DNA of 37,779 bases from Burkholderiales bacterium. Lineage in GTDB: Bacteria; Pseudomonadota; Gammaproteobacteria; Burkholderiales; Burkholderiaceae_F. Positions 23,102-30,338 of the stretch are shown here, in pieces. The notes below the pieces were generated by a model. It had not been told where the DNA came from. It saw nothing but the letters and a program-made list of their open reading frames with translations, and did no database searches. Position 1 is the first letter of the stretch. The number at the start of each line of letters is the position of its first letter. The translations under genes and the position numbers were made by a program. The stretch spans positions 8,215-45,993 of the forward strand of contig OKRD01000154.1 of assembly GCA_900290335.1 (NCBI GenBank), written 5' to 3'.

Positions 23102-25432
23102 CTAGGGCGCGGCCGGCTCGGGCTTGGCCAGGGTCAGCGCGCGGATCCGCGGGCTCAGCAAGGTTCCCTTGCGCGCGCGCTTGCCCATAAAGGCGGCAAG
23201 CTCGCGGCCGCTCACGGCGATGCGCACGCTCTTTCCGCTGCGCGGCGCGGTGCCGGTCACGACCACCCCGGAATCGCCGCAACTCAAGGCGCCGACCATC
23301 TTCTCGTCCTTGTCCAGGCCCAGGAAGATGACGCCACGCCCGCCAGCGGCCTGTGCCTTGATCTCGCCGGCGGCGAACACCAGCATCCGGCCGCCTGCGG
23401 AGACGCAGGCGATGCGGTCGTCCGTCTGCGAATCCACGACGGCCGGACGCAGCGGTTCGGAGCCCTCGTCCAGGCTGAAGAACTGCTTTCCCGCCCGCTG
23501 GCGCGTAAGCAGGTCGCCCAGCTGGCACGCAAATCCCGTTCCGCCGCTGCTCGAGAGCAGCAGTGGCGCGTTGGCCGCACCAGCCACGTAGGCGACCAGG
23601 CGCGTGCCCGGTTCGAGTTCGATCATCGAGGTCACGGGCAGTCCGTCGCCACGGGCCGAGGGCAGGTTGGCCACGGCGACGGAGTAGCAGCGCCCGTTCG
23701 AACCGATGGCAACAAGGTGATCGACGGTCCGGCATTCGTAGGCGCCGTGCAGGCTGTCGCCGGCCTTGAAGGCGAATTGGGCAGCGTCGTGGCCGTGGCC
23801 GTTGCGCGCCCGGACAAAACCCTGCGCGGACACAATTACGGTAACCGGCTCATCGAGGACCCGGGCTTCGAGCACGGTGCGTTCGGCCGATTCGATCAAG
23901 GTGCGGCGCGCGTCGCCGTGCTTTTGCGCATCCTCATCGAGCTCCTTGCCGACCTGGCGACGCAGCGCCGGCTCCGAATCGAGCAACTTGCGCAGCACCG
24001 CTTGCTCCTTGTGCAATTCCGCCAGTTCCTGCTCCAGACGGATCGCTTCGAGCCGGGCCAGCTGACGCAGCCGCAGTTCCAGGATGTCCTCGGCCTGGCG
24101 CTCGGTGAGCCGGAACACGCGCATCAGTTCAGGCTTGGGTTGGTCCGAATTGCGGATCAGCTTGATGACCCGGTCGATGTTAAGCAGCACCAGCTGCCGG
24201 CCCTCGAGAACATGGACGCGGTCGAGCACGCGATCGAGCCGGTGGCGGCTGCGCCGGCGCACGGTCTCGACGCGAAACTCCACCCACTCGCGCAAGATCT
24301 CGACCAGGGTCTTTTGGCAAGGCCGGCCATCGCGGCCGATCATCACCAGGTTGATCGCCACGTTGCCTTCCAGGCTGGTGTGGGCCAGCAGCGTTTGGAC
24401 CAGCTCCTGGCGCTCGATCTTCGAGGTGCGCGGCTCGAACACCAGCCGCACCGCCGCATCGCGGCTGGACTCGTCGCGCATGCGGTCGAGCACCGCCAGC
24501 ACGACCTGCTTGGTCTGCTGCTGCTCGGGGCTCAAGGACTTGCGGCCTGCGCGCACCTTGGGATTGATGAGTTCCTCGACCTCCTCCTGGACGCGCCGCG
24601 CCGACGTTCCCGGCGGCAATTCGGTGACGACCAGCTGCCATTGGCCCCGTGCCAGATCCTCGAAGCGCCAGCGGGCGCGGACCTTCAGGCTACCGCGCCC
24701 GCTCTCGTAGGTAGCGCGAATCTCCTCGTCACTGGAGATCACCTGACCGCCGCCGGGGAAGTCGGGCCCGCGCAGATGCTCGAGCACTTGCGCCAAGGTG
24801 GCGCCGGGCTGGCGCAGCAGGACCTGCGTCGCGCGCACCACTTCGCGCAAGTTGTGCGACGGTATCTCCGTGGCCATGCCGACCGCGATGCCCGACGCGC
24901 CGTTGAGCAGCACCAGCGGCAGGCGCGCCGGCAGCAGGCGCGGCTCCTGCTGGCTGCCGTCGTAGTTGGCGGCGAAATCGACGGTTCCCTGATCGAGTTC
25001 ATCGAGCAGCAGGCGTGCGATGGCGGTCAGGCGCGCCTCGGTATAGCGCATGGCCGCAGCCGGGTCGTCGTCCCGGCTACCAAAGTTCCCCTGGCCATCG
25101 ATCAGCGGGTAGCGCAGCGAGAACTCCTGCGCCATGCGCACCATCGCGTCGTACGCCGCCTGGTCGCCGTGGGGGTGAAACTTGCCGATCACATCGCCCA
25201 CCACCCGCGCCGACTTCACGTGCTTGGAGCCGGGCCCCAGGCCCATGGCGTGCATGGCGTACAGGATGCGTCGCTGGACGGGCTTTTGTCCGTCGGTCAC
25301 CTCCGGTAGCGCGCGTCCCTTGACGACGGATACGGCGTAGTCGAGATACGCGCGCTGCGCAAATTGCGCCAGCGTCAGGGTCTCGCCCGGCTCGCCGGCG
25401 GTCGAAGCAAACAGGTCGGTTTGTTGCGTCAT
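23102..25432 (-). CDS. parC: DNA topoisomerase IV subunit A
   Basis: The DNA-cleaving subunit of topoisomerase IV, which unlinks daughter chromosomes. The 776-residue protein has the winged-helix region [19 protein letters not shown] and the catalytic Tyr130 in [12 protein letters not shown]. It has a coiled-coil arm (about 400-490) and a C-terminal beta-pinwheel with repeated blade motifs. The quinolone-determining position equal to Ser80 of E. coli ParC is Gln91, and Glu84 corresponds to Asp95. The GyrA-box of gyrase was not seen, in line with ParC. It lies 84 bases downstream of the PAS-GGDEF-EAL gene, which separates it from parE. Confidence 0.95.
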
Positions 25433-25516: not shown

Positions 25517-27256
25517 TCACGCACGCTGCACCTGCCGGGCGCGGTCTTCCAGGAAACTCCCGAGAAATTCCTCGGCCGGCATCGGCCGTGCGAACAAAAA
25601 ACCCTGGGCCGAATCGCAACCGAGGGTGTGCATCCAGTCCTTCTGCTTGGCCGTTTCGACGCCCTCCGCGGTAACCGTCATGTCGAGCTTGTGCGCCATC
25701 TCGATCACCGCCTGGACGATGCTGTTCGTGCGCCCGTTCTGCATGCACTCGATCGTGAAGCTGCGATCGATCTTGAGCCGGTGCATGGGCAGGTCGCGCA
25801 GGTGGGCCAGGCTGGAATAGCCGACGCCGAAATCGTCGAGCGCCGCCTTGATGCCGGCGTCGCGCAAGCGCCGCAGGTTTTCCTGGGAAACCGCCGAAGC
25901 ATCGATGAGGCCCGTTTCGGTGATTTCGATTTCGAGTTCCTCCGCCGCAACCGCGAATTCGTCCAGGGTCAAGAGGACGAACTCGACGAAGCCGGGATTG
26001 CGCATCTGCACACCGGAGACATTGATCGCGATCGGCGGCAGGTCCAGGCCGATCTGGCGCCACAGCTGACGCTGGCGACAGGCCTCGCGCAGCACCCACT
26101 CCCCGACACCCTCGATCAGGCCACTCTCCTCGGCAATGGGGATGAACTCGCCCGGGGAAATATCGCCGAGCTCGGCGTCCTTCCAGCGCAGCAGGGCTTC
26201 GGCCCCGACCAGGCGGCCTTCGGGCAGCGATACCAGCGGCTGGTAGAACAGGCGGAAGTCACGCGACTCGTAGGCCTTGCGAAACCGTTGCTCCAGCAGT
26301 ACGCGCAGCTCCGTGCGCCGCGCCAGCTCCGGCGTGAACAGCGCTTGCGTGCCGCCGCCAGCCTCCTTGGCACGCAACAAGGCGGCATCGCCAGCATTGA
26401 ACAGTGCGTCCAGGTCGCCGCCGTCCTTGGGAAAAAATCCCACACCAACCGAGGCACGAACCGAAACCTCGATGTTGCCAAGGCGCTCGGAGCGGGCGAT
26501 CGCCTCGGTGACGTCGCGGGCGACCGCATCGACGAGATCGGAATTGACGACATCCACCAGCAGGGCGACGATCTCGTCGCCGCCGCGGCGGCCCAGCAGG
26601 TTCGGCGGGCGCACGACTTCGCGCAGGCGCGCGGCCACCGCCGCGAGCACCCGGTCGCCGACGCGATGGCCGTAGACGCTGTTGAGCACCCGGAACCGGT
26701 CCAGGCCGATGCACAGCAGGGCGCACTGGTGCCCTCGCGCGTAGGCATCGGACAGCACCTGCTGGGCGCTCTCATCGAAGGCCTTGCGATTGAGCAGCAG
26801 GGTCAGCGGGTCGATGCTGGCAAGGTCCCGCAGCGCGTCCTGCGTGCGGGTTTGCTCGGTAATATCGCGTCCGATGCCGGCGTAGCCGGTGAATTGGCCT
26901 GCCGGGTCGAAAATCGGCACGCCGCACAGCTGCTGCACCGCCGCCCCCTCGCCAACGAGCGGGCGCCGAACCACGAGGTCGGAGAAGGGTAGGCGGGCCT
27001 CGAGGCGCTGCTTGTGCTCTTGCCAGGTCGACGGCCGCAGGAGTTCCCCCGGGATCTCCCAATCACGCCTGCCGATCCACTGCGAAAACGCCGCCTCGGC
27101 TGCACTAGGGCCGCCGTGCAGGATCGTCAAGCGCAGGACAGCATCGGTCTCCCAGTACCAGTCGCCGCTGCGCAGGGCCAGCGCGCGCAGGCTGGCCTCG
27201 CCGGCGCGCGCCCCTGCCGGCCAAGCGTCCGCTTCAGACATCGGCTTCGACATCAT
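25517..27256 (-). CDS. PAS-GGDEF-EAL protein, probable c-di-GMP phosphodiesterase
   Basis: A 579-residue signalling protein without membrane spans. A PAS domain lies at about 30-140 ([32 protein letters not shown]), then GGDEF (about 145-305) and EAL (about 325-565). The GGDEF part looks inactive: the metal-binding DxD region reads GLDRF (184-188), the signature is GGDEI (225-229) and no RxxD inhibitory site precedes it. The EAL part keeps its catalytic marks: EALLRW (353-358), [24 protein letters not shown] (474-483), KIDRSF, EGVE and QGFLFARP. Net c-di-GMP hydrolysis is expected. The first of three possible ATGs (27256, 27253, 27241) has GGAG upstream; all overlap the end of parE. Confidence 0.92.
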
Positions 27257-29216
27257 TGCCGTGCATCTCCAGCCACGCCTTGCGCGAATGCGCCTCGCCG
27301 CGTCCCATGAGCATCGTCATGGTGTCGACGGTCGCGCGTTGATCGAGCGTCCCCAGGGACACCGGCAGCAGCCGACGCGTATCCGGATTCATCGTCGTCT
27401 CCCACAGCTGCTGCGCCGTCATTTCGCCCAATCCCTTGAAGCGCCCGATCTCCACGGCCTCCGGCCGCACCCCCTCGTCCTGGAGCTTGGCCATGGTCGC
27501 TACGCGCTCCTCCTCGTCCAGGCAGTACAGGCGGCGCGCAGGGCGCCGGCCCTGCGGGCCCACGTCGAGGCGAAACAGCGGCGGCCGCGCGACATACACG
27601 TGGCCGGTTTCGATCAAGCGGGGGAAGTGCCGGAAAAACAAGGTCAGCAGCAGCACCTGGATATGCGCGCCGTCGACGTCGGCGTCGGCCAGGATGCAGA
27701 TCTTGCCGTAACGCAGACCGCCAAGATCGACTTCGCCGTCGGTGCCGTGCGGATCGACGCCAATGGCCACCGCGATATCGTGCACCTCGGCATTGCCAAA
27801 CAGCCGGTCCCGCTCCACCTCCCAGGTATTGAGCACCTTGCCACGCAAGGGCAGGATCGCCTGGTACTCCTTGTCCCGACCAAGCTTGGCCGAGCCGCCG
27901 GCCGAATCCCCCTCGACCAGGAACAGCTCGTTGCGCGCGATATCGGTACTCTCGCAGTCCGTAAGTTTGCCGGGCAATACGGCGACCGCCGAACCCTTCC
28001 TCTTTTCAATCTTTTGCAGCGCGCGCGTGCGCGCCTGCGCCTGCTGCACGGCAAGCTCGGCAATGCGGCGCCCGTGCTCGGGATGCTGGTTGAGCCAAAA
28101 CTCGAGCTGCGGACGCACGAACGAGACGATCAGGCGCACTGCGTCCCGGCTGTTGAGGCGCTCCTTGACCTGCCCCTGGAACTGCGGATCGAGCACCTTG
28201 GCCGAAAGCACAAAGCTCACGCGCGCGAACACATCCTCGGGCAGCAGCCGCACACCCTTGGGAAGCGCGCCGTGCGCTTCGGCAAAGGCCCGCACCGCGG
28301 TAAACACGCCTTCGCGCAAGCCCGATTCATGCGTGCCCCCGGCCGTGGTCGGAATCAGATTGACAAAGGACTCGCGCGCTACCGGCCCTTCGTCGGTCCA
28401 CGCCAGCACCCAGCGCGCGCCCTCGCCTTCAGCAAAGCTCGCATCGTCGGCGGGCGCGTAGCCCTCGGCCTCGAGGATCGGCGCGACCAGTTCGCCGCCG
28501 AGCGCCCCGCGCAGATACTCGCCCAACCCGCCATCGAAGCGCCAGCTCCGCTCCAGGCCGCTGCTGGCGACGCGCAAGCTGACCTGCGTGCCCGGCATGA
28601 GCATCGCCTTGCTGCGCAGCACGCGCTCCAACTCCTCGACGGAGACCCGCGCGCTGTCGAAGTACTTGCCGTCGGGCCAGACCGTGACGCGCGTGCCGCT
28701 TTGCTTGTCGGTCGCAGCGAGCGCTCGCGAGCGCAAGGGTTCGACAACCTCGCCGCCCGCGAAGGCGATTCGATGTTCGCGCCGATCGCGCCAGACGACC
28801 ACCTCCAGGCGCTTGGACAGCGCGTTGGTGACCGACACGCCTACGCCGTGCAGGCCGCCGGAGAACGAATACGCGCCGCCAGCGCGCTTGTCGAACTTGC
28901 CACCCGCGTGCAAGCGCGTGAAGACGATTTCGACGACCGGGACCTTCTCCTCGGGGTGGAGGCCGACCGGGATGCCGCGCCCGTCATCCTCCACGCTCAC
29001 CGCGCCGTCGGCCCCGACGCGTACATCGATGTGCGAGCCGAAACCGGCAAGGATCTCATCGGCGGAGTTGTCAATCACTTCCTGGATGATGTGCAGCGGG
29101 CTCTCGGTGCGCGTGTACATTCCCGGACGCTGGCGCACCGGCTCGAGTCCCTTCAGGACCCGAATCGACGCTTCCCCGTATTGGGCCGGGCCGCCTCGCG
29201 AACGCGTCGCGCTCAT
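27234..29216 (-). CDS. parE: DNA topoisomerase IV subunit B
   Basis: The ATPase subunit of topoisomerase IV. The 660-residue protein has the GHKL site ([35 protein letters not shown]) and the switch-lysine region of the transducer. The TOPRIM motifs are [10 protein letters not shown] and [10 protein letters not shown], and the C-terminus carries [19 protein letters not shown]. Length and lack of the long GyrB insertion favour ParE over GyrB, and the parC gene nearby agrees. ATG at 29216 is chosen; the frame is open to 29336 without family likeness. The ribosome-binding site is weak. A promoter candidate overlapping DnaA boxes lies about 150 bases upstream. Its 3' end overlaps the PAS-GGDEF-EAL gene. 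Confidence 0.94.
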
Positions 29217-29366
29217 CGGCTCGGCCGTCCCCAAGGCAGCCTCGGGCGCACCGCACCGGCGAGACAGTCCTCCAACGCTCCTCCCACGCCTCTGAAGATC
29301 GGCAACACAAAACCCGCTTTCGTCACGCACGCCCACGCGCCTGGCCGGCTCATGGCGAATCCAGCG

Positions 29367-29395
29367 ATTTTATCCACAGACGGTGTGGATAAGAA
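29367..29395 (-). promoter_or_regulatory. Candidate parE promoter overlapping DnaA boxes
   Basis: Minus strand: TAAAAT (29367-29372) matches the -10 consensus at 5 of 6 positions. TTCTTA (29390-29395) is a weak -35 box at 17-base spacing. The spacer is almost wholly occupied by the DnaA-box dyad, so DnaA bound there should block RNA polymerase. The -35 match is poor; treat as a candidate only. Confidence 0.35.
29370..29392. promoter_or_regulatory. Two perfect DnaA boxes head to head
   Basis: TTATCCACA (29370-29378, plus strand) and TGTGGATAA (29384-29392, the same box on the minus strand) are separated by GACGG. Both match the strongest known DnaA box. They lie between the divergent parE gene and tRNA-Arg. 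No other origin marks (AT-rich unwinding region, box cluster, dnaA or gidA) are visible in the window, so control of parE or DnaA titration is likelier than a replication origin. The same dyad could fold as a 9-bp stem, but there is no T-run. Confidence 0.8.
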
Positions 29396-29495: not shown

Positions 29496-29570
29496 CTCCC
29501 CGTAGCACAATGGATAGTGCACGCGCCTCCTAAGCGTGAGATCCAGGTTCGACTCCTGGCGGGGGGACCA
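29496..29570 (+). tRNA. tRNA-Arg (anticodon CCU)
   Basis: A full cloverleaf can be drawn. The acceptor stem is 29496-29502 with 29560-29566 (one U-G pair) and the D stem GCAC/GTGC. The anticodon stem CGCGC/GCGTG holds the loop CTCCTAA, giving anticodon CCT (29529-29531). The variable loop is short (AGAT). The T stem is a perfect CCAGG/CCTGG around TTCGACT. CCA is encoded (29568-29570). It reads AGG codons. Its 3' end is nine bases from the orn stop on the opposite strand, with no evident terminator between. Confidence 0.97.
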
Positions 29571-29579
29571 CGGGCGCAA

Positions 29580-30191
29580 TCAGCGCACGGTAATCCAGTT
29601 CACGCGGTAGTGCTGCAGCTCGGCGATCGACTCGTAGACATCGGCCAGCGCCTCGTGCCGGCTTTTCTTCTCGAAACTTCGATGCACCTCCGGGTTCCAG
29701 CGCTTGGCCAGTTCCTTGAGCGTGCTCACGTCCAGGTTGCGGTAGTGAAAGAACGCCTCCAGGCGCGGCATCCAGCGCGCCAGGAACCGCCGGTCCTGGC
29801 AGATCGAGTTGCCACACATGGGCGACTTGCCCGCCCGCACATACCGCCCCAGGAATCCGAGCACCGTCTGCTCGGCCAGCGCCTCGTCCATGGGGGACTG
29901 GCGAACCCGCTCGATGAGTCCCGAACGACCGTGGGTCGCACGATTCCAGGCGTCCATGCCGGACAGCACGGACTCGGGCTGGTGGACCACGACGACCGGA
30001 CCTTCGGCAACGGTCTCCAGGTTGGCATTGGTGATGACCACGGCCACCTCCAGGATCCGATCCGAGTCGGGGTGCAATCCGCTCATCTCCATGTCGATCC
30101 AGACAAGGTTATTGTCGTCAATCGCGAGCTCTTTCGCGCCGGCGGTCTCGGGCGCGGCGCTCGCGATCTCGGGGGCGGAGTCGTGTGCCAT
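29580..30191 (-). CDS. orn: Oligoribonuclease
   Basis: A 3'-5' exonuclease of the DEDDh class that degrades 2- to 5-nt RNAs, including pGpG from c-di-GMP breakdown. The catalytic Asp and Glu are in [11 protein letters not shown], the second Asp in the [16 protein letters not shown] segments, and the His in [13 protein letters not shown] at 30191 gives 203 residues, with about 25 acidic, Ala-rich residues before the usual family start ([10 protein letters not shown]). A start further in is possible but no better one was seen. It diverges from the M48 protease gene and converges with tRNA-Arg. Orn completes the c-di-GMP breakdown begun by EAL proteins such as the one at 25517. Confidence 0.95.
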
Positions 30192-30338
30192 AATTTTCGT
30201 TTCGTCAGCGCGCGTGCCTTGTGGCGACCTGTTGAGCAATCGAGCCTTTGGCCAAGCGGCCGGAATTGTCGCACGCCCCGGCGCGCGCACGCGCGCAGAC
30301 CGCGGAGCGACCGGCGCCGCCGGTGAACCCCAACGACC

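Follow-up and report, generated by a model that had tools for sequence, protein, structure and literature searches.

The closest described systems are the DARS1 and DARS2 sites of Escherichia coli, in which DnaA boxes I and II oppose each other (accessible text of PMC5742627 and PMC8682772). According to the available portion of PMC5742627, boxes II and III are both opposed by box I, DARS1 and DARS2 share one spacing, and Asp269 and Leu290 of DnaA have roles at DARS. In E. coli K-12, DARS1 (L195) reads TTATCCACT-ATTCC-TGTGGATAA-CCA-TGTGTATTA and DARS2 (L197) reads TTATTCACC-TTTTC-TGTGGATAG-AGT-TGTGAAGAA; at both, boxes I and II stand head-to-head across 5 bp and a tandem box III follows after 3 bp. 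DARS1 has only minimal accessory regions (PMC8682772, accessible part), and nucleotide exchange needs all three core boxes (PMC4245941, accessible part). Conservation of DARS2 features is described for beta- or gammaproteobacteria close to E. coli in the available text of PMC5742627 and for gammaproteobacteria only in that of PMC4245941; given the former statement, DARS beyond the enterics is not wholly new.

Binding of DnaA in E. coli has been assigned to 16 regions, of which 15 hold close matches to tandem double boxes 2 to 3 bp apart, and 13 of 32 perfect boxes lie inside bound regions and 19 outside; parE is not among the 16 regions (all from the accessible part of PMC11317965). Two reviews, in the portions available, name parE in other connections, namely, GATC clusters and topoisomerase function (PMC10532879 and PMC13220808). 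Our literature search, which had most subscription papers outside its scope, returned no paper describing control of Burkholderiales parE by DnaA, DARS at xseA, or DARS cores on the side of priA.

A head-to-head DnaA box pair upstream of parE

In the window (the whole stretch of Burkholderiales DNA analyzed, 37.8 kb), positions 29370 to 29392 read TTATCCACA-gacgg-TGTGGATAA, which is two exact DnaA boxes head-to-head across 5 bases; the interval 29367 to 29395 is this dyad with 3 bases on either side. The parE-proximal arm (TTATCCACA, 29370 to 29378, plus strand) reads TGTGGATAA in the sense of parE, and the tRNA-proximal arm (29384 to 29392, minus strand) is likewise an exact TTATCCACA. The 5-bp spacer between them (29379 to 29383, no strand) is constant in length and variable in sequence across loci; the same length separates box I from box II at DARS1 and DARS2 of E. 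coli. The gene parE, for topoisomerase IV subunit B, lies at 27234 to 29216 on the minus strand. On the other side, the divergent tRNA-Arg(CCT) gene (29496 to 29570, plus strand) begins 103 bp from the end of the pair and is followed to the right by a gene for an orn-like oligoribonuclease with an RNase_T domain (29580 to 30191, minus strand). To the left of parE are a GGDEF-EAL gene (25517 to 27256, minus strand) and then parC (23102 to 25432, minus strand), and the two topoisomerase IV genes are split by the GGDEF-EAL gene.

The original prediction had placed two facing exact boxes between parE and tRNA-Arg and had held such a pair unlikely by chance, with boxes fewer in GC-rich DNA; both statements were confirmed. 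The window has no further exact box, and a looser search with TTWTNCACA returned the same two only. The analytic expectation at the window's 66.8% GC is 0.059 boxes; dinucleotide shuffles of the window contained a mean of 0.03 exact boxes, and none of 100 shuffles reached 2. The genome assembly (2.76 Mb, 175 contigs, 83.5% complete) holds 4 exact boxes in total, comprising the parE pair, one other, and one near dnaA, just upstream of that gene and 3.1 kb before gyrB. Besides the parE pair, no exact head-to-head pair with a spacer of 2 to 12 is present in this 83.5%-complete assembly. Genome G002 is a single contig of 3.28 Mb; if it is treated as circular, about 0.97 Mb separate the parE pair from gyrB, used as a marker of the dnaA region.

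Perfect boxes are rare in these genomes (4 to 10 each in this genome and the four same-genus genomes examined), a rarity that would suit a site that passively titrates DnaA and leaves parE unregulated. We consider such a site quite improbable, as it would consist of two boxes only, and the neighborhood and spacer of the pair are fixed, with a promoter-like hexamer kept on one side of it. A chance origin of the pair was rejected on the basis of the shuffles, the conservation across genomes, and the spacer bias described below.

Conservation, spacing, and lineage limits

The main comparison set contained 61 genomes (60 relatives and the genome of the window). Exact head-to-head pairs with spacers of 2 to 12 occurred in 19 of them, one pair each, with a spacer of 5 in 18 and of 6 in one; 14 of the 19 were immediately upstream of parE, and each of these 14 had spacer 5. 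At the level of the family (67 genomes), there were 20 exact pairs, 15 of which had spacer 5. All seven genomes of the genus carry the pair upstream of parE, and the core TCCACA-N5-TGTGGA is found there in 16 of the 18 genomes with ParE of at least 74% identity (own genome included); of the remaining two, G008 has a degenerate N5 pair at parE and G033 has none. Comparison by eye of the 32 genomes with ParE of at most 68% identity and a match covering the N terminus revealed no exact core pair at parE, and one of these genomes, G058, has such a pair 3 kb from parE.

A wider survey of 80 named Burkholderiales parE loci, with spacers of 0 to 12 allowed, yielded 21 loci whose best match had 4 mismatches or fewer, and the spacer was 5 in all 21. 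These were 5 exact pairs, 11 Paraburkholderia loci, L040, L053, L065, and two poor matches, L038 and L080 (the latter with 4 mismatches), which were discounted. The 11 Paraburkholderia pairs have the form ATGTCCACA-N5-TGTGGACA and are located at -44 in one locus and at -51 or -52 in the other 10. In a ParE tree comprising 81 rows (6 exact, window included; 14 degenerate; 61 without a pair), the labels were clustered. The six exact rows fell within a set of 8, together with L040 (degenerate) and L022 (none), and Paraburkholderia formed another group. With the poor L080 match discounted, no pair label was found in the 26 rows of the Oxalobacteraceae branch or in the 23 rows of the Sphaerotilaceae branch. 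The parE pair is lineage restricted. Conservation was borne out within the genus and among the closest ParE sequences, but general conservation at Burkholderiales parE was rejected. As 61 of the 81 tree loci are without the pair, any coupling that it provides is not general.

Spacing was examined independently of parE with the core motif. TCCACA-N5-TGTGGA was present in 38 of the 61 genomes, at 59 sites in total; the reversed control gave 3, and the other 20 spacers between 0 and 20 totaled 107 sites, or 5.35 each. The excess at N5 has a Poisson P of ~4e-40 when computed as if sites were unrelated, ignoring kinship and repeat copies in G050; the 59 sites are not independent, since 3 are near-identical repeat copies in G050 and 7 come from one genus. 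Tail-to-tail pairs numbered 92 over 21 spacers (~4.4 per spacer, the background level), and the opposite orientation was therefore rejected as an enriched arrangement. Among 143 genomes of the class, the N5 core pair was present in 88 and the reversed control in 7, which makes the DARS box spacing widespread. The G050 copies of TCCACA-N5-TGTGGA lie in three stretches that are near-identical over the bases compared (L157, positions 101 and 14030; L158, position 939), perhaps a repeat carrying a DnaA-type dyad.

Near-perfect dyad symmetry and a fixed spacer are features of many dimeric repressors, and the palindrome could in principle be the operator of a regulator other than DnaA. This is very improbable, given that each arm is the DnaA consensus, that the spacing is that of E. 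coli DARS, and that related sites at xseA and priA add a third box in tandem, a feature not expected of a symmetric operator. An action of the pair mainly on the divergent tRNA-Arg gene would fit the presence of tRNA-Arg(CCT) at all 14 exact-pair parE loci, at a distance of ~210 bp or less in 13 of them. Against it stand the 103-bp gap in the window, the distance of 1.1 kb in the remaining locus (G026), and the Paraburkholderia loci, 9 of 11 of which have no tRNA-Arg in the 3 kb examined, with that of the other two at ~3 kb; we regard an effect of this kind as extremely doubtful.

A candidate parE promoter at the pair and the DnaA of the organism

The parE-side box is overlapped by a -10-like hexamer for parE, TAAAAT (29367 to 29372, minus strand; 5 of 6 matches to TATAAT), as had been predicted, and transcription would start near 29360. 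This hexamer is on the parE side of the pair in 11 of 16 sites, and its mirrored counterpart is on the other side in none of the 16, a one-sidedness that argues for promoter constraint. The other five of these close-clade sites do not have TAAAAT, nor do the pairs of Paraburkholderia, L053, and L065 have such a -10. A putative -35 (TTCTTA, 29390 to 29395, minus strand) matches TTGACA at 3 of 6 positions with 17-bp spacing and is weak and not conserved. A standard sigma-70 consensus scan passed no promoter, and no terminator passed either.

ParE could start in the window at the ATG at 29216 or at either of two in-frame GTGs (29330 and 29336); initiation from beyond the dyad was rejected because an in-frame stop lies at 29372, inside it. 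In genomes G001, G002, G003, and G005 (loci L003, L004, L005, and L006), an ATG in the ParE frame follows TAAAAT after 7 bases. The parE transcript may be nearly leaderless in these four genomes, and the 7-base gap would put the dyad at about -10 to -35.

The DnaA protein encoded in the same genome (P0004; Bac_DnaA_C, 111.6 bits) matches E. coli DnaA at 253 of 461 aligned positions (55% identity) and has a DNA-binding domain matching that of E. coli. It keeps the helix-turn-helix core GGRDHTTVLHA, as well as Asp269, Arg281, Arg285, and Leu290; Arg227 of E. coli DnaA (AID-1) is His in P0004. The helix-turn-helix, with this core, is where DnaA makes its contacts.

On balance, we think it probable that the locus is a two-box head-to-head DnaA site with the I-N5-II geometry of a DARS core, placed on the parE core promoter and repressing it when bound. 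Two DnaA molecules would bind the pair face to face, bound DnaA would cover the -10 region, and transcription of parE, and with it topoisomerase IV, would be held down. Expression of parE would then respond to how much DnaA is present, to its nucleotide state, or to its local availability, for instance, as a fork passes parE. The steps differ in strength. Binding of DnaA to the facing boxes is strongly suggested by their conservation, the fixed spacing, the resemblance to DARS, and the match of the DnaA helix-turn-helix; the counterpoint for binding in vivo is that E. coli binding is tied to tandem boxes (PMC11317965, accessible part) and the parE pair is without a tandem partner. Occlusion of the promoter by DnaA is moderately indicated. 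The idea that DnaA represses parE, part of the original prediction, gained plausibility from the presence of the pair throughout the genus and from the one-sided TAAAAT, but the weak -35, the lack of a sigma-70 hit, the 5 of 16 sites without TAAAAT, and the change of Arg227 to His argue against it. A coupling of parE expression to the cell cycle is only weakly suggested. Were it true, the protein that initiates replication would be connected with the enzyme that separates linked daughter chromosomes. We did not find such a coupling reported, and the arrangement hints that, in this clade, initiation of replication and the untangling of chromosomes are tied together.

Three-box cores elsewhere and comparison with known DnaA sites

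The full I-N5-II-N3-III pattern, with at most 1 mismatch, had 35 matches in 24 of the 61 genomes and none in the reversed control. By comparison of coordinates, such a core lies within 400 bp upstream of an xseA match in 14 genomes. With looser scoring, 22 of 53 xseA upstream regions had three boxes, spaced by 5 and 3, with scores of 6.5 of 9 or higher; each of 54 other spacer combinations gave 0 or 1, and 265 shuffled sequences gave none (an XseA match was present in 58 genomes, all of which were scanned except G009, G015, G025, G029, and G036). The xseA-upstream cores lie between xseA and an exbB-like gene, e.g., at L136:2967-3001, L139:2428-2462, and L156:2975-3009. In the genus, the xseA site has boxes II and III and no box I in all six genomes examined (G004 has no XseA match), and the same is the case in G012, G026, G028, and G031; we read this absence as a probable loss of box I. 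A three-box core with at most 1 mismatch was not found in 6 of the 7 genus genomes, G004 being the exception.

Beside priA, there were 7 three-box matches in 6 genomes, and hemE flanks the opposite side in G040, G043, G049, and G059 (PriA was confirmed by Pfam in L176, L184, and L190; the other priA and all hemE names were read by eye). DnaA dyads or DARS-like cores beside priA, often in the priA-hemE gap, were seen in several families (L159, L176, L241 to L244, and L247). In L244, hemE is on the left; G043 has two such elements in a row, 465 bp apart; and the priA side of G002 has a tandem pair. A similar three-box arrangement occurs upstream of a gltX-like gene, named by eye, at L239:2488 and L240:2506 (G027 and G013, one genus). 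With the cores at xseA and beside priA, the recycling of DnaA becomes accessible to experiment in Burkholderiales.

At parE, a tandem box III at 3 bp from box II is absent from all 16 sites, where the best third-box score is 1.5 to 5.5 of 9 (2.75 in the window). The site is a two-box relative of DARS, and a full DARS was rejected. A scan of the window with an IHF-like motif gave 6 matches against a chance mean of 4.2, which is no enrichment, and the nearest match to the pair with at most 1 mismatch is 846 bp away (30238 to 30250). An IHF site at the pair was rejected on this distance and on the chance frequency. The predicted likeness to DARS thus stood for the geometry, including a spacing match that the prediction had not stated, and failed for box III and IHF.

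The pair might instead act as a reduced DARS that promotes ADP release and so reactivates DnaA, its position at parE being incidental or serving a double function, as with DARS1 beside uvrB. The I-N5-II geometry is identical to that of DARS1 and DARS2, and since the genus has an xseA site without box I and lacks other cores in all but one genome, the parE pair may be the principal head-to-head site that remains. However, box III is missing throughout and exchange is described as needing three core boxes (PMC4245941, accessible part), and in G011, G014, G016, and G023 a full xseA core coexists with the parE pair, which speaks against a simple replacement of one by the other. We consider a reduced DARS rather unlikely; nucleotide exchange without box III would be possible but less likely than promoter occlusion, the most economical function. 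An extension of both ideas, which we hold to be unlikely, is that DARS-type cores have been dismantled and reused in Burkholderiales, with II-III kept at xseA of the genus and the head-to-head pair in the parE promoter, where face-to-face DnaA would both release ADP and gate topoisomerase IV synthesis. A single site would then couple the recharging of DnaA to decatenation.

The E. coli promoters regulated by DnaA (nrdA, dnaA, rpoH, polA, and mioC; PMC11317965, accessible part) resemble the candidate parE promoter in that DnaA boxes lie close to it and the gene has a part in replication, but their boxes are tandem double boxes 2 to 3 bp apart, whereas the parE pair is head-to-head with no tandem partner. 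The site shares with datA and other DnaA-box clusters the presence of consensus boxes away from oriC; the likeness to datA that had been proposed did not hold further, as there are two boxes only, no additional boxes clustered at the pair, and no IHF-like match within 800 bp. The xseA and priA cores have the same I-N5-II pair and add a tandem box III at 3 bp, and the parE site is the reverse of the genus xseA site, with I and II perfect or nearly so and III absent. Compared with E. coli DARS1 (bioD-uvrB) and DARS2 (rppH-mutH), the parE pair is without the tandem box III at 3 bp and, unlike DARS2 with its IHF and Fis sites, without an IHF-like match within 800 bp. Its arms are both perfect, whereas box I is off by 1 base in DARS1 and by 2 in DARS2. 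With these two sites it shares the box I-N5-box II geometry and a place adjoining a DNA maintenance gene.
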